The notes beneath the pieces were generated by a model. That model saw only the letters and a list, made by a program, of their open reading frames with translations, was not told where the DNA came from and ran no database searches. The position numbers and the translations under genes are program-made. Shown piece by piece: positions 1 to 13,289 of a stretch of 27,366 nucleotides of DNA. The first letter of the stretch is position 1, and each line of letters begins with the position of its first letter. Source of the stretch: a virus; the IMG/VR virus record IMGVR_UViG_3300033153_003417, positions 1-27,366 of that record; one strand, written 5' to 3'.

Positions 1-93
1 GTCAAGGTGAACGGTAAGCGCAAGTACATCGGGTCGTTCAAGGAATTGGGTGATGCTGTGTCAGCGAAAGAGAACATGATGATGTTCATTTGA
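1..93 (+). CDS. C-terminal end of an AP2-domain protein, probably an HNH homing endonuclease (partial)
   Basis: The reading frame is open from base 1 to TGA at 91-93 and gives 30 residues, including NGKRKYIGSF and then a run rich in Ala, Lys and Met. A pattern of nGKrkyiGsFk followed by a DAvsAKe-like helix is typical of the last strands and helix of the AP2 DNA-binding domain. In phages this domain is usually the C-terminal part of free-standing HNH endonucleases. The catalytic part lies outside the window, so the HNH assignment is inferred from family knowledge. The next gene starts 57 bp downstream after a promoter-like sequence. Confidence 0.6.
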   Translation, partial: VKVNGKRKYIGSFKELGDAVSAKENMMMFI

Positions 94-118
94 CTACTGT
101 GGTACAAAGTGCTACGTT
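90..118 (+). promoter_or_regulatory. Putative promoter for the small-gene operon
   Basis: TTGACT at 90-95 and TACGTT at 113-118 are 17 bp apart, and TGC precedes the -10 to give an extended TGnTAnnnT form. The spacer holds CTAC-TGTGGTAC (94-105), which recurs near two other gene starts in this window. The position, just after a stop codon and before a good ribosome site, fits a promoter. The -10 is a weak match and no transcription data are available. Confidence 0.4.
94..105 (+). promoter_or_regulatory. CTAC/TGTGGTAC motif, copy 1
   Basis: CTAC followed directly by TGTGGTAC, with dyad symmetry TAC-N6-GTA. The same two half-motifs, spaced by 2 bp, occur at 7802-7815 and 12995-13008, each just upstream of a plus-strand gene block. 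It could be an operator for a phage regulator. Confidence 0.4.
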
Positions 119-149
119 ATCAATATCAACTCAACAAGAAGGTGACGAT

Positions 150-581
150 ATGAAAGTAATACCAAACATGAAACCCTGGGAAGTGATGAAGGCTTTTGAG
201 GAAGACGGGAAGCGGGTCGCTGCTAGATTTTTGTATGAAGATATATTCTTGAATGCCTCAGAGCCGGGATGGAACTGGGGTACATACGAATACGCCATCA
301 TCGACGAACCCAAGATTGACTGGGATGGGTTTAACTGGGTGTTCTTCGATCAGTATGGTGGTAAGGACTCACTGGTAGCCTACGACAGAGAGGGTAATGA
401 GGCACTTTTGCAATCCCCCTTCTACCCCTGGTTTGGCAGCGAGTGTCCTGTGCCGGGTAACGTGGAGGTTGAGGTTTGTCATAATGGAGCCGAACCATTT
501 ACTGTCCCAGCAAAAGACGTAAACTGGGTGTGTATTAAAAATAGGTTCTTTGCCTTCCGCATCACCGGGAGAGTGTCATGA
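150..581 (+). CDS. Hypothetical phage protein, 143 aa
   Basis: I do not recognise a family. The protein is acidic and rich in Trp, Tyr and Phe. It begins MKVIPNMKPWEVMKAFEEDG, which resembles the opening of small phage proteins annotated only as hypothetical. There is no signal peptide or membrane segment, so it is probably cytosolic. ATG at 150 is preferred over an upstream TTG at 90 because AAGAAGGTGAC lies just upstream at good spacing. Its stop overlaps the next start in ATGA at 578-581, so the two are likely translationally coupled. It is the first gene of a tightly packed operon of accessory phage genes. Confidence 0.75.
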   Translation: MKVIPNMKPWEVMKAFEEDGKRVAARFLYEDIFLNASEPGWNWGTYEYAIIDEPKIDWDGFNWVFFDQYGGKDSLVAYDREGNEALLQSPFYPWFGSECPVPGNVEVEVCHNGAEPFTVPAKDVNWVCIKNRFFAFRITGRVS

Positions 582-880
582 CACCCAACCAATTAAAGCA
601 ACTCGCCGTGTTCATGGGGCTACCCGAGGTGAAGATACGCAACTCACGCGTGTTCTACCGTAAGCCCGGCTACGAGATGCCTGCACTGTACCAGCCCCAC
701 CTCAACCCTAAGCAGTGCCAGGCGCTCATGGAGCGTATCAGCATCGGTGTGCGCCCTGACCCCGGTACCAGTGAATGGGTAGCATCGGCCTACGGTTACA
801 CTTGGGTATCGAAGCGCGGCGACACCATCGGCAACGCTGTGCTGGCGACTGCCATTGACTACCTGGAGAAGAAGCGATGA
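578..880 (+). CDS. Small phage protein, ABA-sandwich-like, 100 aa
   Basis: The function is unknown. The middle has YQPHLNPKQC followed by a Leu/Glu helix, and the C-terminal part has GYTWVSKRGDTIGNAVLATA before a final helix. This layout (Tyr-x-Pro, short strand, W-V strand, then a helix with Ala-x-x-Ala-Ile) resembles the phage ABA-sandwich domain. The same pattern recurs in the gene at 3180-3518. There is no membrane segment. It starts within the previous stop (ATGA) and its own TGA overlaps the next ATG, so it sits in a coupled chain. The existence of the gene is well supported by coupling and codon use; the fold is a guess from sequence pattern. Confidence 0.75.
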   Translation: MTPNQLKQLAVFMGLPEVKIRNSRVFYRKPGYEMPALYQPHLNPKQCQALMERISIGVRPDPGTSEWVASAYGYTWVSKRGDTIGNAVLATAIDYLEKKR

Positions 881-1254
881 GCGACAAGATAGAAGTAAAC
901 AGTAGTACCGTTGATACAGCAGTTGAGAAGGTGTCAGGGATGCTCGACCAACTAGCACAACAGCTCGGAGTAGCGGTAGAACATTTCTACCCTGTCTTTG
1001 TGCAGCAACAGGTCATCACCGGGACCTTCTACATTGTGATGTCTGCTGTAACTCTACTGGTTGGTGTTCTTTTCGGAGTACTAATGTATCTAGCAATCAA
1101 AGATAAGGAAGAGGCTGCATTCGCGTTAGGGTCTGTTTCATTTGTGTTCTTGATGCTCGCTGGTATAACAGGTTGGAGTGGGTTCACTCATTTATACAAC
1201 CCTGAATACGGCGCACTGATTGAGATTGGTAAGTTTGCGAGGGATTTCAAATGA
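877..1254 (+). CDS. Small membrane protein with two TM helices, 125 aa
   Basis: Residues 1-50 are polar and partly amphipathic (VEKVSGMLDQLAQQL). They are followed by two hydrophobic stretches at about 51-74 and 81-101, separated by a short charged loop, IKDKEEA. The topology suggests an inner-membrane protein with a cytosolic N-terminal helix. No family is recognised. It overlaps the previous gene by ATGA (877-880) and the next start by ATGA (1251-1254). The next gene is also a membrane protein, so the pair could act together at the envelope, for example in superinfection exclusion; that role is speculation. Confidence 0.75.
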   Translation: MSDKIEVNSSTVDTAVEKVSGMLDQLAQQLGVAVEHFYPVFVQQQVITGTFYIVMSAVTLLVGVLFGVLMYLAIKDKEEAAFALGSVSFVFLMLAGITGWSGFTHLYNPEYGALIEIGKFARDFK

Positions 1255-1430
1255 GCGACTACATAATACTCACCCTCGTGACAATGGTGTTCGCCATCAT
1301 GACCTTGGCAGGGTTCACCGTGTGGTGGTGGATTGAGACTGTACCTGAGTGCTTCGGTGCCACTTGGCCTGCGAAGGGTCATGACTGTGATAAATGTCTA
1401 GTGAAAGAGGATTGTAGAGATGAAATTTAA
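1251..1430 (+). CDS. Single-TM protein with Cys-rich tail, 59 aa
   Basis: ATG at 1251 overlaps the TGA of the preceding gene (ATGA), and the frame runs to TAA at 1428-1430. The predicted protein has a hydrophobic helix at about residues 4-28, ending in three tryptophans. A short soluble tail follows with four cysteines (about residues 34, 46, 49 and 55), two as C-D-K-C. The start-stop coupling on the 5' side and the 11-bp overlap with the next gene support it being real despite its size. Its function is unknown. The cysteines could bind a metal or form disulfides if the tail is periplasmic. Confidence 0.65.
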   Translation: MSDYIILTLVTMVFAIMTLAGFTVWWWIETVPECFGATWPAKGHDCDKCLVKEDCRDEI

Positions 1431-1602
1431 ACGAGTCATATTCATAGGTCAGGGTCAAGAGCCCGACCTGATTGGTATAGTTATGCGTGACACCAATGCC
1501 AGTGTCACCGTGCAGGTTGATGGAGAGTGTGACACCTACACTCACGAGGAGCTGCTGGTCATGTCACGCGACGGTGACGTTAAGCTGATAAGGGGTGAGT
1601 GA
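1420..1602 (+). CDS. Hypothetical small phage protein, 60 aa
   Basis: Begins MKFKRVIFIGQGQEPDLIGI and looks like a small all-beta protein with alternating hydrophobic strands. There is no cysteine cluster or membrane helix. The start overlaps the end of the 59-aa gene by 11 bp, with a purine-rich AAAGAGG about 9 nt upstream. Its final TGA overlaps the ATG of the PP-loop enzyme at 1602. No family is recognised. A fold of the kind seen in small phage regulators is possible but unsupported. Confidence 0.65.
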   Translation: MKFKRVIFIGQGQEPDLIGIVMRDTNASVTVQVDGECDTYTHEELLVMSRDGDVKLIRGE

Positions 1603-2450
1603 TGAAAATAGGCTATTACAACATCCACAAGGGTGAATTACACACAGTGAGAAAACCCAATAAGAATCCTAACGAAGAGAGTTTAGTGATTTTATTCTCA
1701 TGCGGGATAACCAGCTTTATAGCGACAATACTCGCATTAGAGGAAAATAGAAAACGGTGGCATCTACCAGTTTACATTATTTATACGCATGTTAGAGAGG
1801 AGCCTGCTGACAACCTTCGCTTCCTTGAAGATGCAGAAAAACACTTCGGGCAGAAGGTTCTCATTATGATGAACGAGGATTTTAACGGCAGCATCTACGA
1901 AGTGTTTGAAAAGACAGGTTGGCTAGTAGGTCCAGGTGGTGCCAGATGTACGACTGAACTTAAATGGCGAGTGCGCAAGAATTTCGTATCTGACAACGAC
2001 ATTCAGGTGTTCGGATTCAACGCTGGTGAAGAAGACCGAATGGACCGGTTTGCTAATGGGAATAACGATATTAATGTGAGTTGCCCATTAATTTGCATGA
2101 GGTATACAAAAGAAAACTGTATCACTATGGCTCACGATATGGGGATCAATATACCAGAGTCATACGGCAAGGGGTATACGAATGCTAATTGTGTAGGATG
2201 TGTCAAGGGGCAGGCTGGCTATTGGAACCATGTCAGGAAGGTTGACCAAAAGGTATTTGATAAAATGGCGAAGGTTGAGAGAGTGATGGATGTCGCAATA
2301 AACAAATCCTATGCGGGTGACGGGAAAAGAAAACGTGTGTTCTTGGACGAATTACCCGTAGGTGCAGGGCGCTATGAGTCGATAGCTGTACCTGATTGTG
2401 GAGTGTTGTGCCAGATGGAAGAAGGGGTGAGTGATGAAGAAGTACATTAG
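1602..2450 (+). CDS. PAPS reductase-like PP-loop enzyme, 282 aa
   Basis: Adenine-nucleotide alpha-hydrolase superfamily, PAPS reductase-like group. The PP-loop is FSCGITS at about residues 32-38, where a cysteine replaces the first glycine of the usual SGGxxS. Further family marks are R-C-T-T-E-L-K (C116), then N-C-V-G-C-V-K-G (C197, C200) and Y-W-N-H-V-R. This combination is recognisable from phage-encoded members, whose substrate is generally unknown. Real PAPS reductases make sulfite; phage versions may instead act in nucleotide or nucleic-acid modification. ATG 1602 is chosen over GTG 1599 because AGGGGTGAG is upstream. The DNA is more AT-rich than the genes just downstream, suggesting separate acquisition. 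Confidence 0.85.
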   Translation: MKIGYYNIHKGELHTVRKPNKNPNEESLVILFSCGITSFIATILALEENRKRWHLPVYIIYTHVREEPADNLRFLEDAEKHFGQKVLIMMNEDFNGSIYEVFEKTGWLVGPGGARCTTELKWRVRKNFVSDNDIQVFGFNAGEEDRMDRFANGNNDINVSCPLICMRYTKENCITMAHDMGINIPESYGKGYTNANCVGCVKGQAGYWNHVRKVDQKVFDKMAKVERVMDVAINKSYAGDGKRKRVFLDELPVGAGRYESIAVPDCGVLCQMEEGVSDEEVH

Positions 2451-2637
2451 AACAGTGAACGGATTCGTCTTGTTCCCTGATACCTTCATACATGCGGAGG
2501 TGGATGTTGGGTTATCGTTGTCACCAATCCGTTCAGCCGGGTTCTACCATAATGGCATCTGTTTCGGTGAGTCAATCAGCCTGGGTATCAAGTCACTGCC
2601 TGAAGACACAGAGGAGCTAGCGAAATGGCTAAGTTAA
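2434..2637 (+). CDS. Hypothetical phage protein, 67 aa
   Basis: Starts inside the end of the PP-loop gene (17-bp overlap) with GAAGGGGTGA upstream of GTGATG; ATG 2434 is the likely start. The sequence alternates short hydrophobic strands with Gly/Ser turns, suggesting a small beta-rich soluble protein. There are no recognisable motifs. It overlaps the next gene by 13 bp. Confidence 0.6.
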   Translation: MKKYIRTVNGFVLFPDTFIHAEVDVGLSLSPIRSAGFYHNGICFGESISLGIKSLPEDTEELAKWLS

Positions 2638-2918
2638 ACTGCAAAGAGTGCCGCCACGACTCCCTGCTGCGCTGTAACGCGGGTAACTGGTCAGCAGGTG
2701 CAAAGGCTCATCAGAAGTTCGTAGACGAGCTACGCGCCTCAGTGGCTAACGTGTGCATCGACTACAACCCACGCGGTGGTGCCAAGATAAAAACAGCGGG
2801 TGGAGTCGTCCAGGAGGATGTCATCGAGGGTATCATTGACCACATCACCGATGACTGCGACTTTGACAATGAGGACGACATCATCGCTGCAATCAAAGAC
2901 GCACCGAGGAGATACTGA
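2625..2918 (+). CDS. Cys-rich small phage protein, 97 aa
   Basis: The N-terminus begins MAKLNCKECRHDSLLRCN, with Cys at 6, 9, 17 and 44. The four cysteines with a C-x2-C pair suggest a small zinc-binding fold. The C-terminal half is acidic and helical (DDCDFDNEDDIIAAIKDA). No named family is recognised. It overlaps the preceding gene by 13 bp. Its TGA overlaps the ATG of a 21-codon microORF at 2918. The DNA here is clearly more GC-rich than in the PP-loop gene or the zinc-finger gene that follows. Confidence 0.7.
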   Translation: MAKLNCKECRHDSLLRCNAGNWSAGAKAHQKFVDELRASVANVCIDYNPRGGAKIKTAGGVVQEDVIEGIIDHITDDCDFDNEDDIIAAIKDAPRRY

Positions 2919-2983
2919 TGATTATCCTATGCGGCTATACACCGGTGATCGTTAAGCTAATTCAATGTGCGGGGTGTTTGTGA
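2918..2983 (+). CDS. Possible 21-aa leader or microprotein
   Basis: ATG at 2918 overlaps the previous stop (TGATG) and the frame ends with TGA at 2981-2983, whose last base is the first base of the next ATG. The product begins MIILCGYTPVIVKLIQ and ends with a C-A-G-C motif. It is hydrophobic. Precise start-stop coupling at both ends suggests that ribosomes read through it, either to make a microprotein or simply to reach the next gene. No homology can be claimed. Confidence 0.35.
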   Translation: MIILCGYTPVIVKLIQCAGCL

Positions 2984-3183
2984 TGGCTTGCGATATTTGC
3001 GGAACTACTGGCTTGCCTCTTGAGGCACTTCGTAAGGATTATCAAACAAAAACCATAAAGGACATTTGTTCTTCCTGCGCCACTAAGGTTAACAGTGAAT
3101 TAACGCGTCAACGCAGTCTTTATTATTTGCAGCAAGAAATTTTCTTGAAAGCGTATATGTGTGGCTTGAGGGTTAAAAAATGA
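2983..3183 (+). CDS. Zinc-ribbon-like small protein, 66 aa
   Basis: Two C-x2-C pairs at residues 3/6 and 29/32 (CDIC and CSSC), separated by 22 residues, look like a treble-clef or zinc-ribbon module. The C-terminal half is basic and helical. I prefer ATG 2983, with GGGGTG six bases upstream, over the in-frame ATG at 2965 that lacks a ribosome site. The DNA is AT-rich compared with the gene before it. The stop overlaps the next start as ATGA. It is possibly a nucleic-acid-binding or host-takeover protein, but the role is unknown. Confidence 0.65.
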   Translation: MACDICGTTGLPLEALRKDYQTKTIKDICSSCATKVNSELTRQRSLYYLQQEIFLKAYMCGLRVKK

Positions 3184-3518
3184 AAACAGCAGACTTAGTA
3201 GCAGACCATCGAACTGATGCGCTGGTAGCGTTGGCGCAGGTTTGGGAGTTGTGCCAAGACAACAACGACAGTAATCGCATGTTTTGGAAAATGGCCCGTA
3301 TATTTGGAGGCGCTACTCCACACATGACGATATGGGTCGATAACTATTCCCCGTCTACCAACCCTGCACAATGCTTTGAGTTGATTGAAGTGTTCTGCTT
3401 ATCAATAGACCAGTTGATCTCAGGGGCACATAATATTCACGTTAATGGATATGGATGGGTTAACGGGGCAGACGAAAATCTTAAGCTAGCCATCTGCAAA
3501 GCAGTTATTACGGCTTGA
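3180..3518 (+). CDS. ABA-sandwich-like phage protein, 112 aa
   Basis: The central part has YSPSTNPAQCFELIE and the end has NGYGWVNGADENLKLAICKA. This is the layout of the phage ABA-sandwich domain, in which a YsPStn-like strand and helix precede a W-V strand and a C-terminal A-I-x-A helix. The protein at 578-880 shares Y-x-P-x2-N-P-x-Q-C and the G-Y-x-W-V segment, so the two are probably distant paralogues. The function of this family is unknown. The start overlaps the zinc-ribbon gene's stop. No membrane segments are present. Confidence 0.75.
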   Translation: MKTADLVADHRTDALVALAQVWELCQDNNDSNRMFWKMARIFGGATPHMTIWVDNYSPSTNPAQCFELIEVFCLSIDQLISGAHNIHVNGYGWVNGADENLKLAICKAVITA

Positions 3519-3560
3519 GTGGGGTGATGTGATACCTGATGAGATATGGGAGAAGGTGAA

Positions 3561-3932
3561 ATGAATACTAAAACAATGAAGGTGACTGCGGAGGAGCTTG
3601 AGCAACTACGCAAAGAGAACGCAGCACAAGCGCAGGAGATTGACGAGCTGAAGGCGCATGCTAATGAGTTGCGTGAGGCGATGGAAGCAGCATGCGCTGA
3701 AGATATGTGGATAGAAACGATGGATGGCTTATTAGATTATCAGTATGTCGATTGGTATGTTGATTGGCTTACAGAATCTCTAGCTAAAACACCAGCCCAA
3801 TCCCTAGCCGCTCACGATGCAGCGATTGAGGGAGAGGCGGTTGAGCGGTGTGCTGATGAGGTGGCAAAGTATTACGGGTCTGGCGCTGGGTCTGTAGCGC
3901 TCCGCAACATGCCGAGAAAGCACGATGTATAA
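3561..3932 (+). CDS. Ea22-like phage protein, 123 aa
   Basis: The N-terminal third is a heptad-rich coiled coil (about residues 8-45). It is followed by an acidic linker and then TPAQSLAAHDA and an E-R-C-A motif, wording commonly seen in Ea22/Ead-like proteins of enterobacterial phages. The role in those phages is unclear; the genes are usually early and non-essential. An upstream in-frame ATG at 3546 exists, but GAGAAGGTGAA precedes ATG 3561, so that start is chosen. It overlaps the next gene by 8 bp. About 40 bp without a convincing gene separates it from the preceding gene. Confidence 0.75.
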   Translation: MNTKTMKVTAEELEQLRKENAAQAQEIDELKAHANELREAMEAACAEDMWIETMDGLLDYQYVDWYVDWLTESLAKTPAQSLAAHDAAIEGEAVERCADEVAKYYGSGAGSVALRNMPRKHDV

Positions 3933-4218
3933 GCGTCCAATGTGGTCATCGGAGCGGTCCAAGAAAGAGATTGTGAAGCGACTGATGAGAAGTCCGTGCC
4001 AGATGAGTGACCTCATCAACTCACTACAAGGTTGCCCGACTGGTAACATGTCGAACTATCTATCAGCACTACTGACATCGAACCTCATCAGCAAGACCGA
4101 CACACGCCCGGCTATCTATACGGTGAATGTCGCGACTGGTGCGGGTATCGTTGTCGGCCAGGTCGGACGACCCTATGCCAGTGAAGACCGTAGTCACTTT
4201 ATTAGAGGGAGGAGATGA
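3925..4218 (+). CDS. Winged-helix-like DNA-binding protein, 97 aa
   Basis: Residues about 10-65 (SKKEIVKRLM, MSDLINSL, MSNYLSALLTSNLISK, then a short beta wing with PAIYTVN) fit a winged helix-turn-helix. The spacing of helices and the final strand-like YTVN are typical of small phage transcription factors. The C-terminus is basic (FIRGRR). It would act on DNA in the host cytoplasm, perhaps as a repressor of early genes; this is inferred from fold pattern only. It overlaps the preceding gene by 8 bp and is followed by GGGAGGAGATGAACC, a strong ribosome site for the next gene. Confidence 0.6.
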   Translation: MYKRPMWSSERSKKEIVKRLMRSPCQMSDLINSLQGCPTGNMSNYLSALLTSNLISKTDTRPAIYTVNVATGAGIVVGQVGRPYASEDRSHFIRGRR

Positions 4219-4221
4219 ACC

Positions 4222-4455
4222 ATGGAACAAATAGCAATAGCATTTACTGGGGCGGTGGCAATTTGGTTAACTCAGGACGACCGTGACAACTGGCGAAAGT
4301 ATGCTTGTTTGTTTGGTATGGCCGGTCAACCGTTTTGGTTTTACTCTGCTTATGCTTCCGAGCAATGGGGGATCTTTGTGCTTTGTATATTTTATACGTG
4401 GGCATGGTTTAAAGGTGTGAGGCTGCACTGGCTGAACAAACCACAAGCCCCTTAA
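4222..4455 (+). CDS. Small phage membrane protein, three TM, 77 aa
   Basis: Hydrophobic segments lie at about residues 3-16, 25-44 and 48-65, with signature patches A-I-W-L-T, FGMAGQPFWFY and EQWGIF. I recognise this as a recurrent small membrane protein of proteobacterial phages (A-x-W-L then Q-P-F/A-W then Q-W-G-I-F), with no assigned function that I know of. GGGAGGAGATGAACC gives a strong ribosome site for ATG 4222. It is the last gene of the first plus-strand block and converges on the methyltransferase gene with only 6 bp between the stop codons. Confidence 0.75.
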   Translation: MEQIAIAFTGAVAIWLTQDDRDNWRKYACLFGMAGQPFWFYSAYASEQWGIFVLCIFYTWAWFKGVRLHWLNKPQAP

Positions 4456-4463
4456 CCGGGGTT
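4446..4463. terminator. Weak bidirectional hairpin between converging genes
   Basis: AGCCCC (4446-4451) can pair with GGGGTT (4458-4463) around a 6-nt loop that contains the stop codon. No T-tract follows on either strand, so it is at best a weak terminator or pause site between the converging operons. Confidence 0.25.
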
Positions 4464-4947
4464 ATCGCATCACCAGAGAAGTAACAGGTAGTCCATTATG
4501 TCCAGGTCGCCAGATGATCAACACTGACCCTTTGTTATTCCCATTCACAGGTTTCCCAGTATCAGCATTGATGAAGCTGATCCGCCCAGAGATGAACCGC
4601 ATCTCACTCGCAGTATCCCAAGCTCTCTTGAACCATTTCACTGATGTGTCAGAAGGAACCAGCATCACCACCGTAGCACCTCCTCTTGCAGCTTCTACCG
4701 CCTTATCTACCCACGGACCTATGTTACTGTAAGGCGGGTTACACCAACACGCTACCGAAGGCCATACATTGTCACCCAGCGCGTTCATCTGCTCATCAAT
4801 ATAGAACGGTGCCAAGTGGTTGTGTTTTGAAGCAGCCACATCAATAGCAAAGTTAAACTCTTCATCAATCCGCTTGTAAAAAGAAGGAGGAGTCTGCCAC
4901 AGGTCTTTGATCTCTTTCGGAGTGTGAGATTTATGTTCGGTACTCAT
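4462..4947 (-). CDS. Phage DNA N6-adenine methyltransferase, 161 aa
   Basis: Transfers methyl from SAM to adenine N6 in DNA. The catalytic motif is C-N-P-P-Y-S-N-I-G-P-W at about residues 69-79. An N-terminal W-Q-T-P region and the F-A-I-D-V-A-A motif that helps bind SAM precede it, and a V-V-M-L-V-P strand and G-R-I-S-F follow. The length and motif order match the phage Dam family (the Dam/DNA_N6_MTase group of small single-domain enzymes). The start overlaps the stop of the primase-helicase by 4 bp (ATGA), so the two are coupled. It may protect phage DNA from restriction or time its replication. Confidence 0.88.
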   Translation of the reverse strand: MSTEHKSHTPKEIKDLWQTPPSFYKRIDEEFNFAIDVAASKHNHLAPFYIDEQMNALGDNVWPSVACWCNPPYSNIGPWVDKAVEAARGGATVVMLVPSDTSVKWFKRAWDTASEMRFISGRISFINADTGKPVNGNNKGSVLIIWRPGHNGLPVTSLVMR

Positions 4948-7529
4948 CTCACCACCTCCAACTGTGCAGCACCGCGTGCCTCTTTCATCTGACGCTCATA
5001 CTCATGGAACAAAGCATTAGAGTCCATGCTTGCATACTTCTCCTTGTTACGGACTACCCACAGCCGTATCGGTGTGCCGAGGTAGTACCCGTTCACCTGG
5101 GTGTACTTGCCAACTTGCCTGAGTGTCATGCCGACCTTCACCGGTGTGAAGAACTTCCCCTCAACATACATATAGGTCTGTGCGAACGCGTCCCCGTTGC
5201 GCAGGGTATCCGACATGTCACTGGCAGTTAAGATGTCACACTTGAACGCGCCTATCTTGTTCGTGACGAATGTCTCAAGAGTTTGTTGACTCGGTGACTT
5301 GGATGCCTCACGGATATCACGCAGGAACTGAGTCATCGGTGGTGCTTCAGCCGGGTTAAAGTCACTCAGGTCCACCACGTACATCAAGTGGTGCGTCACT
5401 GCTTTCCAGCCGTCTGCCTTCATCCAGTTCCACCGGTCTTCCCAGTAGTCCAGCCAGCCCCGTGTCATGTTGTCGTTATCATCCCTGACATTCAGGTCAG
5501 ACCACAGTGCCAGGAACCGACGTGAGGCGCTGTTCAATCGCAGCGGCATCAGACTGTTGGTGGTCATGGTGGCGTTGATGATGTTGCGTATCTTGATGGG
5601 CTTGATGCCCTTCTGGTTGACTCTCAATGTGTCCGGTGGAGCTGCGGCCAGGGGCTTGAGCTTGTTGCTCACGGCTATCGCTTCGCGCCGGTCACCCAGT
5701 TCAGCTTCATTGATGTGCAGGTACTTACTGGACAGCAGGTGATCGTCGAAGTCACGCAGCAGCTCATCCCCACTGATGACGGTGTAGTTATCCCCCATCG
5801 CCTTTGTCAGCGGGTACAGCAGGTAATCTTTGCCGCAACCCTCATTGCTACCCATCAGCAGCATGTGGTTGATCTTGCGATCAGGGTGACGCAGGGTGAA
5901 CGCCATCCATTGTTCGATATGCTTGCGGTAGGATCCCCACCCGAGTGCATCAAAGTGGTCATGCCACCGAGCGATGTCGCCCGGCGCACCCACTGACTGA
6001 CTGACATCAGACCAAGTGTTAGCGTAGACGATACCGTTATCAATGAAGGTCTGAGGTTGTTTCGGTGCGTAGTCCAGCCGATCAACCTTCTTCACCCGGC
6101 CATCTTGCAGAGCTATCTTCCTTGCCTCGGCATCCTCATGAGAGAAGCTGTTCTGAAACGCCTCAGTGCTGAAGAAGATGCGTGACTTGTAGTCGTAGAA
6201 TTGGTTCAACTCTTTAACATACACCACGTCATCATAGAACTCAGCGGTGCTCACCTTGTCACCGTACCACTGTTTGCGCAGGTCTTTGATGATGTCTTTG
6301 AAGTCACCCTTACCCCAACCCATGATGTCGCAGATGACGGTGTGCCAATGGTTCTGGTCGAGCTTCGGCATGTCATCGGTGTGCTTCAACACCTTTGCCG
6401 CCAGCTCACGCGCCGCCTTACTGGTAGGGTGCTCACGTCGCAGCCCATCGCACAGCATCTGTATCGCATCGAGGTCGGGCTCTGCTGGCGCAGTGACGGG
6501 TGCAGGCATGAAGCTGACTGGGGCTATAGGTGCAGCCACGGGCGTTTGGGTAGATGTGACTTGTGGCAGCATGAAGCTGGGCTCACTGACTGATGAGAAC
6601 TCTCGCATGATCTGCCAGTTCTTGAGTATCCCACTGAAACCGGGGGATTGCCCCTCGATATGTCGTAGTAGATCATGCCCGGTTCGACCTTGACATGCAC
6701 CGTGGTGACACTTGAACCCGATTGATCCGTCAGCGTTTGTAAACACTGCCGATCCGCTATCTTCTCCACCCGTATGCTCTTGAACCCATGGGCAGACAGC
6801 ATCAAATCGTCCATCAGAACGCACCTCTTTAATGTGAATGATATCGGGGATGTTCACCAATGGGTGATCGGACACATCAGCAGCACCATCGACCCGCGAC
6901 TCCCGGCGCACCCGGTCAAGGTCAACCATGAACGGTGCAGCCAGTTGCTCAATGGTCACACGGTTGAAGGGTTCCCATAAGGTCAGCTGACACTTGAACG
7001 GTAACCCATTCACCAACTTGGATGCTTTACTGTTGGAGCCTTCAGGCAGACGGACATAGCGTGTGACCCCCTTCATACCTGGATCACGACCCTGTGGTGC
7101 AAGACCGTTAGCCACCAACCCATCTAGCAGGTTCTCTACCTTGGCACGCTCAGTGCAAGGGGTATCGAGGATGTAACCCCACTGCTCTGACCCTTGTGAT
7201 GTCTCAAGCACCCATGCAGGGCGTGGCAGCTTCGACACCTCGGTCATTGACAGCTTCTCTTTCACATCATCCAGTACTATCACCGGTGTGTGTCTGAACA
7301 GAGCTTTACGGCGACGCGCCTGCCCCTGCTCATCAGCGTAGAAGTTGCTAATGGTGAAGTATTGATTGGTGCCGGGGGTCAGATTGTACCGGCTGAAATA
7401 GTCACCCTTCCACGCGATAAGGTGTTTGTCTTTTGGGATGTCACCAGGGTCATACGGGAAGTCAGTTATATGCACCCATGGCGCATCAACACCAAAGAGG
7501 GCGGTCAGGAATTCGTTATTTGTCACCAT
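4944..7529 (-). CDS. Primase-helicase, RepB-like primase plus D5/SF3-like helicase, 861 aa
   Basis: Primes and unwinds DNA at replication. The N-terminal part (about 1-200) contains I-V-L-D-D-V, then an E-T-S-Q-G-S-E-Q-W-G-Y motif and R-D-P-G-M-K-G-V-T-R-Y-V-R-L-P, typical of RepB-like primase domains. A CxHxxxC-like patch with C274, H275, H276 and C279 resembles a zinc site. A Pro/Ala-rich linker follows. The helicase part has Walker A GSNEGCGKD at about 560-568 and a downstream L-H-I-N-E-A-E Walker B. R-R-F further on may be an arginine-finger region. ATG 7529 is chosen over TTG 7556, with AAAAGAG eight bases upstream. It lies 13 bp after the 53-aa gene and is coupled to the methyltransferase. 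Confidence 0.88.
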   Translation of the reverse strand: MVTNNEFLTALFGVDAPWVHITDFPYDPGDIPKDKHLIAWKGDYFSRYNLTPGTNQYFTISNFYADEQGQARRRKALFRHTPVIVLDDVKEKLSMTEVSKLPRPAWVLETSQGSEQWGYILDTPCTERAKVENLLDGLVANGLAPQGRDPGMKGVTRYVRLPEGSNSKASKLVNGLPFKCQLTLWEPFNRVTIEQLAAPFMVDLDRVRRESRVDGAADVSDHPLVNIPDIIHIKEVRSDGRFDAVCPWVQEHTGGEDSGSAVFTNADGSIGFKCHHGACQGRTGHDLLRHIEGQSPGFSGILKNWQIMREFSSVSEPSFMLPQVTSTQTPVAAPIAPVSFMPAPVTAPAEPDLDAIQMLCDGLRREHPTSKAARELAAKVLKHTDDMPKLDQNHWHTVICDIMGWGKGDFKDIIKDLRKQWYGDKVSTAEFYDDVVYVKELNQFYDYKSRIFFSTEAFQNSFSHEDAEARKIALQDGRVKKVDRLDYAPKQPQTFIDNGIVYANTWSDVSQSVGAPGDIARWHDHFDALGWGSYRKHIEQWMAFTLRHPDRKINHMLLMGSNEGCGKDYLLYPLTKAMGDNYTVISGDELLRDFDDHLLSSKYLHINEAELGDRREAIAVSNKLKPLAAAPPDTLRVNQKGIKPIKIRNIINATMTTNSLMPLRLNSASRRFLALWSDLNVRDDNDNMTRGWLDYWEDRWNWMKADGWKAVTHHLMYVVDLSDFNPAEAPPMTQFLRDIREASKSPSQQTLETFVTNKIGAFKCDILTASDMSDTLRNGDAFAQTYMYVEGKFFTPVKVGMTLRQVGKYTQVNGYYLGTPIRLWVVRNKEKYASMDSNALFHEYERQMKEARGAAQLEVVR

Positions 7530-7542
7530 AATGAATGCTCTT

Positions 7543-7704
7543 TTAATTCTGCTCAATGATTTTTATAAGACTGTTGATGTTCACAACTGGTGTTGACCAC
7601 TCATCGCATCCGTACAATCTGTCACCGCCTACCCCCCTGCTCATTAACATGTCTTTGATGTCATTGAGTCTCCATAGAATATCTTTCTGCAATTCCTCAT
7701 CCAT
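7543..7704 (-). CDS. Small acidic protein, 53 aa, first gene of the minus replication operon
   Basis: Starts at ATG 7704 behind AGAGGTGACGACG, an excellent ribosome site, rather than at the upstream in-frame start at 7782. The product begins MDEELQKDILWRLNDIKDML, an amphipathic helix likely to form a coiled coil, followed by a Gly-rich turn. There is no known family. It is the promoter-proximal gene of the operon for the primase-helicase and methyltransferase, and ends 13 bp before the primase start. It could be a replication accessory or regulatory peptide; this is a guess from position. Confidence 0.6.
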   Translation of the reverse strand: MDEELQKDILWRLNDIKDMLMSRGVGGDRLYGCDEWSTPVVNINSLIKIIEQN

Positions 7705-7753
7705 CGTCGTCACCTCTATGTGGGTCGGTAATAATAGCACATTCGTCAGAATC

Positions 7754-7782
7754 AGATTAATCCACACATGGAACAAAGTCAA
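7754..7782 (-). promoter_or_regulatory. Putative sigma70 promoter for the primase operon
   Basis: On the minus strand, TTGACT (7782-7777) and TAATCT (7759-7754) are separated by 17 bp. Closer to the gene there is also an extended -10-like TGCTATTAT (TATTAT at 7736-7731) without a clear -35. Either would serve the operon starting at 7704. Sequence match only. Confidence 0.5.
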
Positions 7783-7791
7783 ACATTTATG

Positions 7792-7821
7792 TTGACAACT
7801 TCTACAATGTGGTACTAGAAT
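7792..7821 (+). promoter_or_regulatory. Sigma70-like promoter for the replication operon
   Basis: A perfect -35 TTGACA (7792-7797) and TAGAAT (7816-7821) are 18 bp apart. The spacer ends in CTACAA-TGTGGTAC (7802-7815), the shared motif. The downstream ATG at 7858 has CGAGGAA in front. It is divergent from the minus promoter at 7754-7782; the two -35 elements are only about 9 bp apart, so binding of one regulator could affect both. Confidence 0.7.
7802..7815 (+). promoter_or_regulatory. CTAC/TGTGGTAC motif, copy 2
   Basis: CTAC-AA-TGTGGTAC with dyad symmetry TAC-N8-GTA, sitting between the -35 and -10 of the replication-operon promoter. A protein bound here would block RNA polymerase. Related copies are at 94-105 and 12995-13008. 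Confidence 0.45.
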
Positions 7822-7857
7822 TGAACTGTGACTTATACATCAACGAGGAATTTAAAC

Positions 7858-8073
7858 ATGTCTGAAGAGGACAACGGTACTACTCTTGACGGTGATTTGC
7901 GAATGCGAATCGAACAGAAGGAGCTTGACATCTTTATCAATAAGTCTCAGCGCACCACTGGCAAGCCTTATCAGATGCTGCTGCGTGAGATCGTCACCGC
8001 ATTCAATGATGGTCGCCTGCGCATCATCCCAACCGAAGACCAACAGAACGGAGAACTTTACAATGTCAATTGA
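7858..8073 (+). CDS. Small RHH-like protein, possible regulator, 71 aa
   Basis: The sequence has a disordered acidic N-terminus, then R-M-R-I, a K-E-L-D-I-F-I-N-K helix and [16 protein letters not shown]. The pattern of a short beta strand, two helices and a TGKPYQ-like turn resembles ribbon-helix-helix (Arc/MetJ-type) phage proteins. An RHH protein would dimerise and bind DNA through its strands. ATG 7858 is preceded by CGAGGAA at good spacing; an upstream in-frame GTG at 7828 lacks one. It is the first gene after the divergent control region, where an autoregulator would be expected. It overlaps the next gene by 11 bp. Confidence 0.6.
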
Positions 8074-8458
8074 AAATAACCTGAAACGCATCGCCGACTC
8101 ACTTGAGTCCATCGCTAAGTCAATGGAGATGAAAGCTAAACCTCCCATGACTGCATCCGCAATTGCATTGCAATCCGAACAGACCCTTGCCCCCATCGTT
8201 GCCGTTGACCCTGCACCCACCGAAGTGAACAGCCAGGTCGCACCACCAACCACCGCCGCAGCCGCTGCAACAATCAACCCCCCGGCTACCATGTCAGCTG
8301 AGGAGATGAACACCGCGCTGGTTGCTGAGTTCAGTCGCCTGGGTAGTCGTGAGCCTATCGACACTGCCATGGCTACACTTGGTGTGACCTCGGTTGCTGA
8401 CCTCGCCGCTGACCAACAGCAGGCGCTGCTCACCGCTGTTCGGGCTATCCCGGCGTGA
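8063..8458 (+). CDS. Coiled-coil and Ala/Pro-linker phage protein, 131 aa
   Basis: The N-terminal helix [20 protein letters not shown] forms short heptads suited to oligomerisation. A long Ala/Pro/Thr linker (about 45-85) follows, and then a helical C-terminal domain (about 88-130). The coiled coil-linker-helical domain layout and the position between a regulator and DUF2800/DUF2815 genes are typical of small replication/recombination accessory proteins of phages. No family name is claimed. It starts in ATGTCAATTGA, overlapping the RHH-like gene by 11 bp. Its TGA overlaps the GTG start of DUF2800, so expression is coupled. Confidence 0.65.
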
Positions 8459-9876
8459 GTGAGGGTCACGCAAGGCTCGGCCCCAGCAACGCAAGATGGC
8501 CGAACTGTCCCGGCTCAGTGCGTGAGGAGGAGCGTTACCCCGACGTATCCGGTGAAGCGGCTATCGACGGCACCGGGTCGCACCTGCTGCTTGAGCTGTG
8601 CCTACAGAACAATGTACCGGCAGCTCAGTATGACCAGCAGATCATAGGTGCAAATCACCCCGACAACATGAACGGGTGGATGGTTGCCCCTGACCGCATC
8701 AAACGTGTGCAGATGGCACTGGACTACATCACTCGGCGAGTTGTTGAGCTTAAAGAGCAGTTCCCAGGGTGCACGGTATCCGTTGAGTCTGAGCAGAAGT
8801 CGGACCCAGGTGGTGCATTTGGTCGTGATGACTGGTGGGGTACTGTTGACATCACCATCACTGCACGCCAGCCGATGACCGGCGAGGCTTACTTCATCGA
8901 GGTGGCTGACTATAAGGATGGTCGCGGGTACGTGTCTGAGAAGCGTAACACTCAGTTGACCAGTTACCTCTTCGGTAAAATGCGCCCTTACATCTGTAGT
9001 GGCAATGAGTTGGTTCGACCGTTCCACCCTAACAAGGTGGGCGGGTGCCGCATGACTATCATCCAGCCAAAGACGAACCCGGTGGTGCGTTACCAGTGCT
9101 CGACTCGACCCGAGGATGAGTTCACACCATGGGGTGTGGTGGATGCCGCTATCGAGCTGTCACAGGCTGCTGTCAAGACTGATGAAGATAATGCGCCGGT
9201 GGCATCGGGTAAGCACTGCCAATGGTGTAAGGCTAACCCTAAACGTGGTGGTCACTGTAATGCAGAGACTGCTAAGAGTATGGAGGTGGTAGAGAGTATG
9301 AATACCGAGATGACCCCAGTAAAAATAGAGGGGGATGCCGGCGATCAGTTAATGAGTTTGATGTTCAACGCCGTTGCAGACCCTAAGTCTCTGACAGTCG
9401 AGCAACTATCTCAACTCGCTGATGCTAAAGACGGCATCATGTCAGTCTTTGACAAGGTGAACGCTGAGATCCAGGAGCGCATCGAGCAGGGCACCAGTGT
9501 GCCAGGGTACGACATGCAGCCTGGTAACAGTTCACAGGTTTATAATGAATCTGAAGAGGTGGTCGCCAAGAAACTCAAAGCGTGCAGAATGAAAAAGGAC
9601 GACATCTTTCCAGCGAAACTCATCACACCTGCTGCATTAATGAAGTCCGAGAACTTGACAACCGGTCAAAAAGAACGACTGAAGAAGGAGTTGATTACAG
9701 TCAAAGGTGGCAAACTGTCGCTGAAGAAAGTCGCACACGATCATGTCAGTGAGAAACTTGTTGCACAAAGTACCACTGATGGTCTACCATCTACTGAAGC
9801 TGAACTGATGTTTGCTGGTGTTCCTAAGATAGAATCAGCGGTTTCGACTGTTGAATCTGAAGTTTCATTCTTTTAA
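8455..9876 (+). CDS. DUF2800 protein, Cas4/RecB-like nuclease fold, 473 aa
   Basis: The N-terminal G-H-A-R-L-G-P-S-N-A-R-W-x-N-C-P-G-S opening is the family hallmark. A PD-(D/E)xK core is visible as D132 in W-W-G-T-V-D, then E149 and D152-Y-K154 in F-I-E-V-A-D-Y-K-D-G-R-G. A late Cys cluster at about 255, 258 and 268 resembles Cas4/AddB-like metal or Fe-S ligands. The family sits beside DUF2815 and a DNA polymerase in many phages and is thought to process DNA ends or aid recombination. The start is GTG 8455, overlapping the previous stop, without a clear ribosome site; translation is likely coupled. The C-terminal 180 residues are Lys/Glu-rich and less conserved. Confidence 0.88.
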   Translation: MSEGHARLGPSNARWPNCPGSVREEERYPDVSGEAAIDGTGSHLLLELCLQNNVPAAQYDQQIIGANHPDNMNGWMVAPDRIKRVQMALDYITRRVVELKEQFPGCTVSVESEQKSDPGGAFGRDDWWGTVDITITARQPMTGEAYFIEVADYKDGRGYVSEKRNTQLTSYLFGKMRPYICSGNELVRPFHPNKVGGCRMTIIQPKTNPVVRYQCSTRPEDEFTPWGVVDAAIELSQAAVKTDEDNAPVASGKHCQWCKANPKRGGHCNAETAKSMEVVESMNTEMTPVKIEGDAGDQLMSLMFNAVADPKSLTVEQLSQLADAKDGIMSVFDKVNAEIQERIEQGTSVPGYDMQPGNSSQVYNESEEVVAKKLKACRMKKDDIFPAKLITPAALMKSENLTTGQKERLKKELITVKGGKLSLKKVAHDHVSEKLVAQSTTDGLPSTEAELMFAGVPKIESAVSTVESEVSFF

Positions 9877-9889
9877 GAGGTGACAAATT

Positions 9890-10639
9890 ATGGCGTTAAT
9901 TAAATGTGTTTTATCATTTAGTGATATTTTTACGGCGAAGATCCCAAAAGCAGGAGGTGATCCAAAGTTTGGAGCGTTGGGGTTAATACCACCCGGTGAT
10001 CCTCAACTTCCTGCTTTGCTTGCTGAAGTCGAAGCTGCAAAGGCAAACACTTTCCCGTCAGGGGTTCCAGCGAATAGCAATATTTGTCTCGACCTTTACG
10101 AAAAGAAAGTCACACCTGACAAAAGCTACTATGACCCGCGTTTCGTAGGTTGGTACGCTTTCAGTTGCTCTGCAAAAGCAGATGATAAACCAGCGGTCGT
10201 TGACATGGCGCATATCGCTATCATTGACCCTTCACAGGTTTATAGTGGGATGGTTGTGTATATCAATGCCGGTATCAGTGGCTATGTTAAAGGTACCGGT
10301 GGTGTTGGTGGTTGGCTCAATGGTGTAATGAGTACCGGCGAGCTTGGTCAGTTTGGTCGAATTGATGGTAAGCCGTCGGTTGAGCAGATGTTCGCTGGGG
10401 TTGCTGGTGGCACTGCTGCTCCTGCTGCTCCTGCCGCTCCTCCTGTTGCTGCTGCTCCTCCTGTTGCTGCTGCTCCTCCTGTTGCTGCTGCTCCTCCTGT
10501 TGCTGCTGCTCCTCCTGTAATGCTACAGATGACCGCAGCGGCTAACGGTGTGACGCTTGAGCAGTACCTTGCCACACCGGGCTGGACTGAACAGATGCTT
10601 ATTGACCAGGGTCTGGCTATCCGTCCGAGTTTCGCTTAA
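9890..10639 (+). CDS. DUF2815 protein, ssDNA-binding-like, with tandem Pro/Ala repeat, 249 aa
   Basis: Residues 1-175 match the DUF2815 pattern: a V-L-S-F-S-D-I-F start, D-P-S-Q-V-Y-S-G, and a G-I-S-G-Y-V-K-G motif in an OB-fold-like region. Family members are believed to bind single-stranded DNA during phage replication or recombination. A low-complexity Ala/Pro/Val stretch (about 177-210), coded by an 18-bp tandem repeat, then links to a short C-terminal helix (MLQMTAAANGV then LEQYLATPGW). Such linkers with terminal tips are common in ssDNA-binding proteins. The ribosome site AGAGGTGAC precedes ATG 9890. A strong terminator follows. Confidence 0.85.
   Translation: MALIKCVLSFSDIFTAKIPKAGGDPKFGALGLIPPGDPQLPALLAEVEAAKANTFPSGVPANSNICLDLYEKKVTPDKSYYDPRFVGWYAFSCSAKADDKPAVVDMAHIAIIDPSQVYSGMVVYINAGISGYVKGTGGVGGWLNGVMSTGELGQFGRIDGKPSVEQMFAGVAGGTAAPAAPAAPPVAAAPPVAAAPPVAAAPPVAAAPPVMLQMTAAANGVTLEQYLATPGWTEQMLIDQGLAIRPSFA
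10436..10518 (+). repeat. 18-bp perfect tandem repeat (about 4.6 copies) inside the DUF2815 gene
   Basis: Unit GCTCCTCCTGTTGCTGCT repeats exactly at 10436, 10454, 10472 and 10490, with an 11-base partial copy at 10508-10518. It encodes A-P-P-V-A-A repeats. Exact identity implies recent slippage expansion, so copy number may vary between isolates. A looser GCT/CCT run precedes it. Confidence 0.95.
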
Positions 10640-10651
10640 CCCCAAGCGTTT

Positions 10652-10680
10652 ACCCTCCTATCCTTGGGAGGGTCTTTTTA
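10652..10680 (+). terminator. Rho-independent terminator after the DUF2815 gene
   Basis: ACCCTCC (10652-10658), a 7-8-nt loop, then GGAGGGT (10667-10673) and CTTTTTA (10674-10680). The stem is GC-rich and the T-tract clear. It would stop the plus-strand transcript 13 bp after the stop codon and separate the DUF2800/DUF2815 genes from the polymerase. Confidence 0.88.
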
Positions 10681-10742
10681 TAGTGACATTGGTGCAGGAT
10701 GCAGGTGTGGTATGGGCACATCGAATCAGTGTCACTATAAAA
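10676..10742. repeat. 13-bp perfect inverted repeat, 41-nt spacer
   Basis: TTTTATAGTGACA at 10676-10688 and its exact complement TGTCACTATAAAA at 10730-10742. The left arm shares the T-tract of the terminator. The spacer holds GCAGGatGCAGG (a short direct repeat) and a TGTGGTAT/CACA patch. The structure lies 21 bp upstream of the next gene's ATG and could be an operator pair, an RNA hairpin or a replication-related site; no data choose between them. Confidence 0.7.
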
Positions 10743-10763
10743 TGACAACAGAGGTGATGAGTG

Positions 10764-10949
10764 ATGCGTGCAGAATACATTTCAAAAAAGTTTTCAGATG
10801 ATATTAGTTGGGGTGAACTTAAAGAGCTTGTTAATTCTCACCCTGATGTTAATGACCATACCAAGATAGACAGCTTTCGATTAAAAGCTAGTCATAATCG
10901 CGTCTATCTAACAGTGAATGATGATTTGGAGATTGTGTTAGGTGACTAA
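10764..10949 (+). CDS. Hypothetical protein, 61 aa, upstream of polymerase
   Basis: Starts at ATG 10764 (within GTGATG) with AGAGGTGATGA upstream. The product starts MRAEYISKKFSDDISWGELK and ends with alternating strand residues (N-R-V-Y-L-T-V-N-D-D-L-E-I-V-L). This looks like a small alpha/beta protein. No family is recognised. It overlaps the polymerase GTG start by 8 bp and so should be coupled to it, perhaps as a small partner or regulator. Confidence 0.6.
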   Translation: MRAEYISKKFSDDISWGELKELVNSHPDVNDHTKIDSFRLKASHNRVYLTVNDDLEIVLGD

Positions 10950-12990
10950 CCCCGACTTCCTCTACGGCATCACACCGGGTGACATCCGCTATGACATCGA
11001 GACCTTCCCCAACATCTTCACCATTGGGTTCTATCATCCTGTCACTAAGCGGAGATGGTTATTCGAGATCAGCTTCAGACGTAACGACATAGTGTCACTG
11101 TGTCGCTTCATTGAGGTGATGGGTGAACAGTGTGTGCGCATGGTTGGTTACAACAACATCGGGTTTGATTATCCAGTGCTTCACTTCATCTACCAGAACC
11201 GTCGAGCCTGTATCACCGCTGCTGACATCTACACCAAAGCAATGTCTATTATAAATGCTCACGGTCCGGCACGATTCTCTCACATGGTGTGGGAGTCTGA
11301 CTGGCTGGTGCAGCAGATTGACCTGTACAAGATCCATCACTTCGATAACATGAGTAAAGCTACCAGTCTGAAGGTGCTTGAGTTCAACATGCGGATGGAC
11401 AGCATTGAAGACCTGCCGTTCCCTGTTGGTACAGAGTTGAACAGTAACCAAGCTGACGTGCTTATCGACTACATGTGGCATGACATCGATGCTACTGATA
11501 TGTTTGCAGATCGGACAGTACCTCAGATTAAACTGCGTGAAGACCTCTCTGAGACTTTCGGTAAGAACATGACGAACATGAGTGACGTGAAGATGGGTGA
11601 AGTCATCCTGGTCACTGAGATGGAGAAACGCGGCATTTCATGCTTCGAGTACCAAGGTAACAGGAAGGTCAAGAAGCAGACCAAGCGTGAGTCGATTGAT
11701 TTAGCACAGGTAATATTCCCTTATGTCAAATTTGAAAACCCAGCGTTCCAACAAATCAAAGTATACCTCGAATCGAAAGTCATCAAAGAAACGAAGGGTG
11801 TCTTCAAAGGTCTCATCGCGACACTGGATGGACTCGACTATCACTTTGGAACCGGTGGACTACACGCCTCTGTTGAGTCACAAGTCATTCACACCGATGA
11901 GCGATACCAGCTGGTTGATGTTGATGTTAAGTCTTTTTATCCTAGGCTCGGCATTGAAAACAAACTCTACCCGGCGCACCTCGGTGAAGCGTTCTGTGAT
12001 GCGTACTTAGGGGTCTATAATACTCGTATTACATACGACAGTGGTACACCGGAGAATAACGCGTTCAAGCTGGCACTGAACGGTGCGTATGGTGGTAGCA
12101 ACAACGACTACAGCCCGTTCCTTGATTCATTCTATACGATGTCGATCACCATCAACGGTCAACTGCTACTGTGTATGCTGGTCGAACAGCTGCTGAAGGT
12201 GCCAGGTCTGAGGATGGTACAGGCGAACACCGATGGTATCACTTACCTCTGTCCTCATGAGTACCTGGAACACACCCGTACCGTCTGCCGATGGTGGGAG
12301 GAGCTGACCAACCTTGAGCTTGAAGAGGCGCTGTATAGCCGCATGTTCATTCGTGATGTGAACAGCTACATCGCCGAGTACAGTAACGGAAAACTAAAAC
12401 GCATAGGAGCATACGCACATGTCACAGCAGAAGAAGACCCAGGAACAAGAGAGTTGCCATATCATAAAGACTGGTCTGCGCGGGTTGTGGCACTGGCTGC
12501 TGAGGCTGCACTGGTGCACGGCGAAGATATCAGGACATTCATTACTAATCATCAAGACGTGTTCGATTTCTTCTTGCGAACTAAAGTGCCGAGATCGTCA
12601 ACTCTTGAATGGGGAGGGGAACGGGTTTCAAATATTATACGTTACTACATCAGCACTGATGGACGACCACTTGAGAAAGTGATGCCACCAAAGGGTAAAG
12701 CCGGTGAGTATAAGCGCGCCAATAAGCTGACTGACTTCCACTTCGATAACGTCATGGCTGAGATTGGTGAAGGTGTGTGGGATGAGCGTGTGCACACCAA
12801 GAACAAGTCAGTGTATGAGGAGCGCCGTAGTGGGATACAGACCGGTTGGACTGTGCAGTTGTGTAATGATTTGGATGACTTACTGTTACCGCCAGACGGT
12901 GGTGATTGGATGAGCCAGAGTCTCAACTATGAATGGTACATCCAGCAAGCAGAGAAATTGGTTAAGCCACTGTTGCAGGGTTCAATATAG
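10942..12990 (+). CDS. Family B DNA polymerase with 3'-5' exonuclease, 682 aa
   Basis: Phage replicative polymerase. Exo I is D-I-E-T-F-P-N (D18, E20), Exo II is G-Y-N-N-I-G-F-D (about 69-76), and Exo III is the Y-M-W-H-D region. The polymerase motif A is D-V-K-S-F-Y-P at 328-334. Motif B is K-L-A-L-N-G-A-Y-G at 376-384, and motif C is N-T-D-G-I at 429-433. Motif C has Asn where most family B enzymes have the first Asp, while the essential second Asp (D431) is kept. The start is GTG 10942, overlapping the previous gene, with GGAG 10 nt upstream. In comparable DUF2800/DUF2815 modules this slot usually holds a family A polymerase. The stop is followed by a promoter-like motif. Confidence 0.93.
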   Translation: MTNPDFLYGITPGDIRYDIETFPNIFTIGFYHPVTKRRWLFEISFRRNDIVSLCRFIEVMGEQCVRMVGYNNIGFDYPVLHFIYQNRRACITAADIYTKAMSIINAHGPARFSHMVWESDWLVQQIDLYKIHHFDNMSKATSLKVLEFNMRMDSIEDLPFPVGTELNSNQADVLIDYMWHDIDATDMFADRTVPQIKLREDLSETFGKNMTNMSDVKMGEVILVTEMEKRGISCFEYQGNRKVKKQTKRESIDLAQVIFPYVKFENPAFQQIKVYLESKVIKETKGVFKGLIATLDGLDYHFGTGGLHASVESQVIHTDERYQLVDVDVKSFYPRLGIENKLYPAHLGEAFCDAYLGVYNTRITYDSGTPENNAFKLALNGAYGGSNNDYSPFLDSFYTMSITINGQLLLCMLVEQLLKVPGLRMVQANTDGITYLCPHEYLEHTRTVCRWWEELTNLELEEALYSRMFIRDVNSYIAEYSNGKLKRIGAYAHVTAEEDPGTRELPYHKDWSARVVALAAEAALVHGEDIRTFITNHQDVFDFFLRTKVPRSSTLEWGGERVSNIIRYYISTDGRPLEKVMPPKGKAGEYKRANKLTDFHFDNVMAEIGEGVWDERVHTKNKSVYEERRSGIQTGWTVQLCNDLDDLLLPPDGGDWMSQSLNYEWYIQQAEKLVKPLLQGSI

Positions 12991-13001
12991 TGTGCTACAT
13001 T
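12973..13001 (+). promoter_or_regulatory. Putative internal promoter at the end of the polymerase gene
   Basis: TTGCAG (12973-12978) and TACATT (12996-13001) are 17 bp apart, with TGC in front of the -10 (extended form). The -35 lies in the polymerase coding end. The motif CTACAT-TGTGGTAC overlaps the -10. A GAGGTGAC ribosome site and the next ATG follow at 13035. The hexamers are modest matches. Confidence 0.4.
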
Positions 13002-13008
13002 GTGGTAC
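12995..13008 (+). promoter_or_regulatory. CTAC/TGTGGTAC motif, copy 3
   Basis: CTAC-AT-TGTGGTAC, dyad TAC-N8-GTA, in the short gap after the polymerase stop. It overlaps the putative -10 at 12996-13001. It is the same motif as at 94-105 and 7802-7815. Confidence 0.45.
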
Positions 13009-13034
13009 ATACTAACTAAAGAGGTGACGCAGTG

Positions 13035-13289
13035 ATGTTAAAAGAAATCAATAGAGCACGAAGAGAATACTCCAATACAGGTGATACTCCTCGCAGCTTC
13101 GCGCTTGGATATGAAGATGGTCTCGATCTTCTGGTTGAGTTCAGTAAGAGTTTACCAGCACCCGACCCTGAGATTGAGGAGATGCTGAACCGTGGTGATC
13201 GCGCTGAGATTAAAGCGCATCTAAATAAATCAACCGTCTACGGTATGGATTTAACCGTGGTTGACTTAGTAATTACAGGAGAACACTGA
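13035..13289 (+). CDS. Hypothetical phage protein, 84 aa
   Basis: ATG 13035 follows GAGGTGACGCAGTG, a strong ribosome site; the GTG at 13032 is less likely. The protein is mainly helical and charged (MLKEINRARREYSNTG, then FALGYEDGLDLLVEFSKSL). There is no known motif or membrane segment. Its TGA overlaps the next ATG by one base. It lies between the polymerase and the nuclease/helicase pair, so a replication-linked role is possible but unproven. Confidence 0.65.
   Translation: MLKEINRARREYSNTGDTPRSFALGYEDGLDLLVEFSKSLPAPDPEIEEMLNRGDRAEIKAHLNKSTVYGMDLTVVDLVITGEH

Follow-up and report, generated by a model that had tools for sequence, protein, structure and literature searches.

A conserved 19-bp operator at early promoters of a marine phage group and its probable Arc-type repressor

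A 19-bp dyad, TGTnnnACA-W-TGTnnnACA, recurs at predicted early promoters of a 27,366-base IMG/VR virus fragment (hereafter the window, the whole stretch of DNA that was analysed) and of related phages, and it is probable that an autoregulated Arc-type repressor controls an early-gene regulon of about five such sites. Comparison among the phages shows that the operators and the promoters are conserved, that the two overlap and that they are linked to the gene of a 71-aa ribbon-helix-helix (RHH)-like protein, the proposed repressor. The nearest named relatives of the window are the Vibrio phages MZH0603, 1.185.O, 1.021.A and PS25B.1 (polymerase identity 72-74%), and 12 more related contigs were obtained from IMG/VR; the comparison set consisted of 17 genomes, i.e. 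the window and 16 related phages. In Vibrio phage 1.185.O, CRISPR spacers are annotated inside an annotated coding gene (L017 28101-28318); they resemble coding repeats and the annotation is probably spurious.

A sequence-only reading of the window had proposed a CTAC(N0-2)TGTGGTAC dyad at three plus-strand gene-block starts. The strings CTAC-TGTGGTAC (94-105), CTAC-AA-TGTGGTAC (7802-7815) and CTAC-AT-TGTGGTAC (12995-13008) were all found to be exact and on the plus strand, and a scan of the window with CTACN{0,3}TGTGGTA returned these three matches and no other (0.01 expected; three were reached in 0 of 100 shuffles). Exact TGTGGTAC is likewise confined to the three strings in the window, and with one mismatch it is not enriched there (30 against 25.4). 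Each string sits in a short gap ahead of a good ribosome site, as had been described, and the promoter overlap claimed for all three is clear at 7798, fair at 98 and weaker at 12991. The motif boundaries were misplaced: judged by comparison, the strings are fragments of the longer 19-bp operator element, which lies at 98-116, 7798-7816 and 12991-13009 and pairs two symmetric subsites at a centre-to-centre distance of 10 bp. CTAC(N0-2)TGTGGTAC was rejected as a unit, the N0 form at 94 being a promoter coincidence; this CTAC is part of the promoter sequence TTGACTAC, and the genuine second half-site, AGTGCTACG, is found further downstream, which explains the odd spacing of N0 versus N2. A MAFFT alignment of the three sites was misleading because their flanks are unrelated. 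The string TGTGGTAT at 10706, taken earlier as a partial form, does occur, but it did not score positively with the operator matrix and was ruled out as an operator. It is enclosed by a 20-nt inverted repeat (90%; GTCTTTTTATAGTGACATTG at 10672-10691 and CAGTGTCACTATAAAATGAC at 10727-10746, 35 nt apart), which precedes a window-specific gene at 10761-10949 and whose 13-base core is absent from all 178 loci examined.

Downstream of the polymerase stop codon a single element recurs at the same place among the relatives; it reads TGTGCTACATTGTGGTACA in the window and, for example, TGTGGGACAATGTTCTACA and TGTGATACATTGTGCAACA elsewhere. A matrix trained on 15 polymerase-downstream sites only was scanned over the 17 genomes. 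At 15 bits or more, 53 sites were obtained, including 38 outside the training place, several of the counted sites being homologous copies in close phages and hence not independent; 40 column-permuted, symmetry-keeping matrices gave 50 sites in total, or about 1.25 each. TTGAC directly flanked 18 of the 53 sites and 10 of the 38 untrained ones; its base rate is 1.6%, and among the 50 control sites it flanked 1. The extra copies in the 16 related phages were located before the RHH-like gene, at the heads of left-arm operons and at the 3' end of the DUF2800 gene, and many copies lie within, or overlap, the -35/-10 region of a promoter of sigma-70 type. The same operator is found at several predicted promoters and is kept in relatives, which is the arrangement of an autoregulated regulon. 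Counted within the window only, the degenerate 19-mer does not reach significance (10 against 10.5 at three or fewer mismatches), and therefore the operator claim is a comparative one. Six phages with a related polymerase and no detected RHH gene, which are more distant overall, were used as a negative-control set and carry 0-1 operator-like sites each. Arrays of 10-bp subsites beyond two were seen as single cases (G009, G005 and G012), with no general excess.

The main switch appears to be the gap between the leftward primase gene and the rightward RHH-like gene (7858-8073, plus strand), the first gene behind the putative promoter P_R; two operators 30-31 bp apart are present in this divergent gap in many phages, and three in Vibrio phages W02-W04. 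P_R (7792-7821, plus strand) consists of TTGACA (7792-7797) and TAGAAT (7816-7821) with a spacer of 18, matches at 11/12 and is the top promoter-like site within 1-14000; operator O2, ACTTCTACAATGTGGTACT (7798-7816, plus strand, score 9.7), lies inside it, 31 bp from O1. The opposing promoter P_L, predicted from sequence to run leftward towards the primase, has its -35 TTGACT at 7782-7777 and its -10 TAATCT at 7759-7754 (minus strand). The -35 is contained in O1, CATGGAACAAAGTCAAACA (7767-7785, minus strand), which scores weakly in the window (6.9) and is kept upstream of the RHH gene in relatives. Collected by the protein alone, 44 RHH loci were available, with 33 non-redundant P_R regions and 29 non-redundant P_L sequences. 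When the P_R regions were aligned on TTGAC, an anchor whose own conservation is no evidence, T, A and T of the -10 were conserved at 94-100% behind an 18-bp spacer, and in the spacer itself conservation was 82, 67 and 70% for ACA, 82, 91 and 97% for TGT, and 91 and 79% for AC. The P_L sequences, aligned on O1 (GTCAAA), share the -10 TAnnnT at 100% with a 17-bp spacer. Taken together, the two alignments place O1 over the predicted -35 of P_L and let O2 fill the predicted spacer of P_R. An operator score of at least 6 within 175 bp upstream was recorded at 36 of the 44 RHH loci, against 40 of 1020 random stretches.

The left-arm operator, TGTGGTACAAAGTGCTACG (98-116, plus strand), sits in the spacer of a candidate promoter, TTGACT (90-95) -17- TACGTT (113-118), and heads the left-arm operon, the first gene of which has its ATG at 150; it scores 17.4 with the matrix, which was not trained on that site. 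Many left-arm operons of the relatives begin with TTGAC-operator-TAnnnT, and in G001 and G002 the operon behind an operator holds a homologue of the window gene 150-581. Positions 1-92 carry the end of a plus-strand gene truncated at the edge of the window; an AP2-like stretch (VKVNGKRKYIGSF) in it was recognised by eye only. A further site, TGTTGCACAAAGTACCACT (9759-9777, plus strand), is intragenic, located within the 3' end of the DUF2800 gene and some 110 bp ahead of the SSB (DUF2815) gene, and comes with TTGCAC (9761-9766) -18- TACCAT (9785-9790). The codons GTT GCA CAA (A/T)GT nnn AC(A/T) are identical in 13 non-redundant DUF2800 tails, flanking residues differ widely, and the usual shares of GTT, GCA, CAA and AGT in these genomes are 0.31, 0.35, 0.44 and 0.21, respectively. 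In two relatives AGT is replaced by TGT, which alters the residue and brings the DNA nearer the consensus, and TAnnnT follows TTGCAC by 18 bp in most tails. By this comparison the site is held at the DNA level, and the tails suggest an intragenic promoter within the DUF2800 gene before the SSB gene. The Enc34-type SSB gene (9890-10639) has a PPVAAA repeat run in its tail.

The post-polymerase operator, TGTGCTACATTGTGGTACA (12991-13009, plus strand), directly follows the stop codon of the polymerase gene and covers a -10-like TACATT (12996-13001), paired with a -35-like TTGCAG (12973-12978) at a spacer of 17, a promoter that is not consensus; the matrix finds the operator in the matching place in 14 relatives with 0 or 1 mismatch. 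An operator-like sequence inside the giant virion gene, TGTCCCACAACGTGCTACA (25365-25383, minus strand, matrix score 17.5), is doubtful as an operator. It encodes VPQRAT, a motif that recurs in G002, G004 and G010 behind unrelated upstream residues, and it may be a DNA signal or a protein-driven linker. As regards membership of the regulon, the three places noted from the sequence were retained and 10706 was dropped, and O1 and the DUF2800 site had been missed.

The 71-aa RHH-like protein is favoured, short of proof, as the most likely binder of the operators. By Blast, its gene is present behind the operator region in each of the 14 relatives with contig coverage of that place. The protein shows a strand-helix-helix pattern, and the structure model, a monomer model of a fold whose strand forms only in the dimer, shows an unpaired stretch at 13-18 followed by helices at 20-34 and 38-50. 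The only VIA match with Z of at least 2, from a comparison limited to two chains, was the DinJ antitoxin (4ml0_G; Z 4.5, rmsd 2.8, 48 residues over model positions 11-59), and Foldseek with the monomer model gave a chance match only. Among 27 sequences R17 is nearly invariant and position 15 is mostly R (else H, K, N, Q or S); both residues would face the DNA. Pfam RHH_1 matched 2 of the 27 members below the cut-off (best E 0.011), and sequence searches of Pfam, PHROGs, NCBIfam and PDB gave no curated match. Profile comparison with Arc (hhalign) was not significant, with a probability of 0.5% and the top alignment in the strand/helix-A register, and comparison with Mnt gave no homology. Membership of the RHH superfamily is likely, although it lies outside what the curated profiles accept. 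No relative was found on plasmids, and a limited scan of 84,980 bacterial and archaeal genomes did not find the regulator.

It is unlikely that another phage protein, such as a helix-turn-helix (HTH) dimer, reads the operators and that the RHH protein is a bystander in the operon. The DNA itself is compatible with a dimeric HTH reader since longer 10-bp arrays were not found, and the 19-mer is a full palindrome, the kind of site favoured by HTH dimers; in addition, the primase and the 131-aa protein encoded at 8063-8458 match the RHH protein in breadth of conservation. But the 131-aa protein has no family match, no further small DNA-binding-like protein is conserved, and the position of the RHH gene directly behind O2 fits autoregulation. 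The winged-helix-like protein at 3925, put forward from the sequence as a second candidate binder, was discarded, with a homologue in 0 of the 16 relatives that keep the operator and a sub-threshold HTH_5 match; of the proposed regulon, a shared operator under one phage factor stays well supported, through its conservation in the relatives, with the RHH-like protein as best candidate.

Use of a host repressor or activator by the phage for early-gene timing is very unlikely. In its favour are promoters of host sigma-70 type and a window in which no phage RNA polymerase was noticed, but the sites go with the phages that carry the RHH gene and are almost lacking in the six polymerase-related phages, two of them Vibrio phages, and their location in the promoter core favours a dedicated repressor. 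The same location, in the -35/-10 spacer, from which a bound protein normally shuts polymerase out, makes it highly improbable that the bound protein mainly activates transcription or shapes DNA for replication or packaging; several sites do lie beside replication genes and a phasing of three turns separates O1 from O2, but the sites are scattered over the early region with no origin-like cluster. Scarcely tenable is a common promoter sequence only, a conserved extended -10 (TGnTACAwT) and no operator, which would account for the likeness to an extended -10 and for the part of the conservation shared with -35 and -10, but not for the retention of both TGTnnnACA subsites, including spacer bases unread by sigma-70, nor for the dyad upstream of a separate -10 at O2.

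For the favoured Arc-type repressor, we infer RHH protein binding, stoichiometry, repression and timing as follows. The 19-bp operators would lie in or across the -35/-10 elements of host-type sigma-70 promoters driving the early and replication blocks, and two RHH dimers, one per TGTnnnACA subsite, would bind 10 bp apart on one helix face and block RNA polymerase. Early in infection the host polymerase would fire P_R, leading to the RHH protein, exonuclease, SSB and polymerase, and also the left-arm promoter and, for the primase, P_L. With accumulation of the RHH protein, O1 and O2 (31 bp, three turns apart) would be filled and P_R and P_L shut, including synthesis of the RHH protein itself; the intragenic promoter before SSB, the post-polymerase promoter and the left-arm promoter would also be damped. 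The likely action would be occlusion of early promoters together with negative feedback on the repressor. A wider reading is possible but rather doubtful, in which one Arc-type repressor would be the master timer of the whole early programme in phages with no sign of lysogeny, acting through two to three operators that lie between divergent promoters in phase, three helical turns apart, and through promoter-operators within coding sequence, in the exonuclease gene and perhaps also in the giant virion gene.

The proposed system would work like Arc/P_ant of phage P22 by analogy of design, and sequence comparison does not place the protein in the Arc family. In P22 the Arc operator occupies the stretch from -35 to -10 of the strong promoter P_ant, the same promoter position as that of O2 in P_R, where the 33 P_R regions put the predicted operator inside the spacer of the promoter that would transcribe the repressor gene itself. 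The gene arc directly follows P_ant, as the RHH-like gene follows P_R, both encode small proteins (53 aa for Arc, 71 aa here), and the divergent mnt promoter overlaps the operator on the other strand, a divergent overlap that is also seen here. Differences are that Arc controls one promoter, beside the Mnt operator, compared with about five early-region sites here, one of them inside coding sequence, and that the operator sequences are unrelated. Operators of the RHH proteins MetJ, CopG and omega are composed of neighbouring short symmetric subsites on one helix face, each taken by one dimer; here the spacing is 10 bp and there are no general arrays past two subsites. In the lambda OR and OL regions, bound by CI and Cro, several operators lie between divergent early promoters and the first gene is a regulator. 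The phages described here share operators between divergent early promoters (three in W02-W04) and the regulator gene in first place, but, unlike lambda, no conserved HTH repressor and no lysogeny switch were seen. The type of replication block, with exonuclease (DUF2800), SSB (Enc34 SSB/DUF2815), polymerase, nuclease and helicase, is shared with Enc34-like phages, whereas the six more distant polymerase relatives lack the operator set.

A literature search, with subscription papers outside its scope, found no description of the regulon. The Arc/P_ant-like design is of a known kind; the new element is a regulon with several early sites, at least one of which is inside a gene. The analysis provides a concrete early-gene circuit for a widespread, little-studied marine phage group with Vibrio isolates, proposes a role for a conserved hypothetical protein of 71 aa, and shows selection on an operator within coding sequence. 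If true, the P22 Arc design, which serves a single promoter, would be widened to a regulon in phages for which no lysogeny switch is known.
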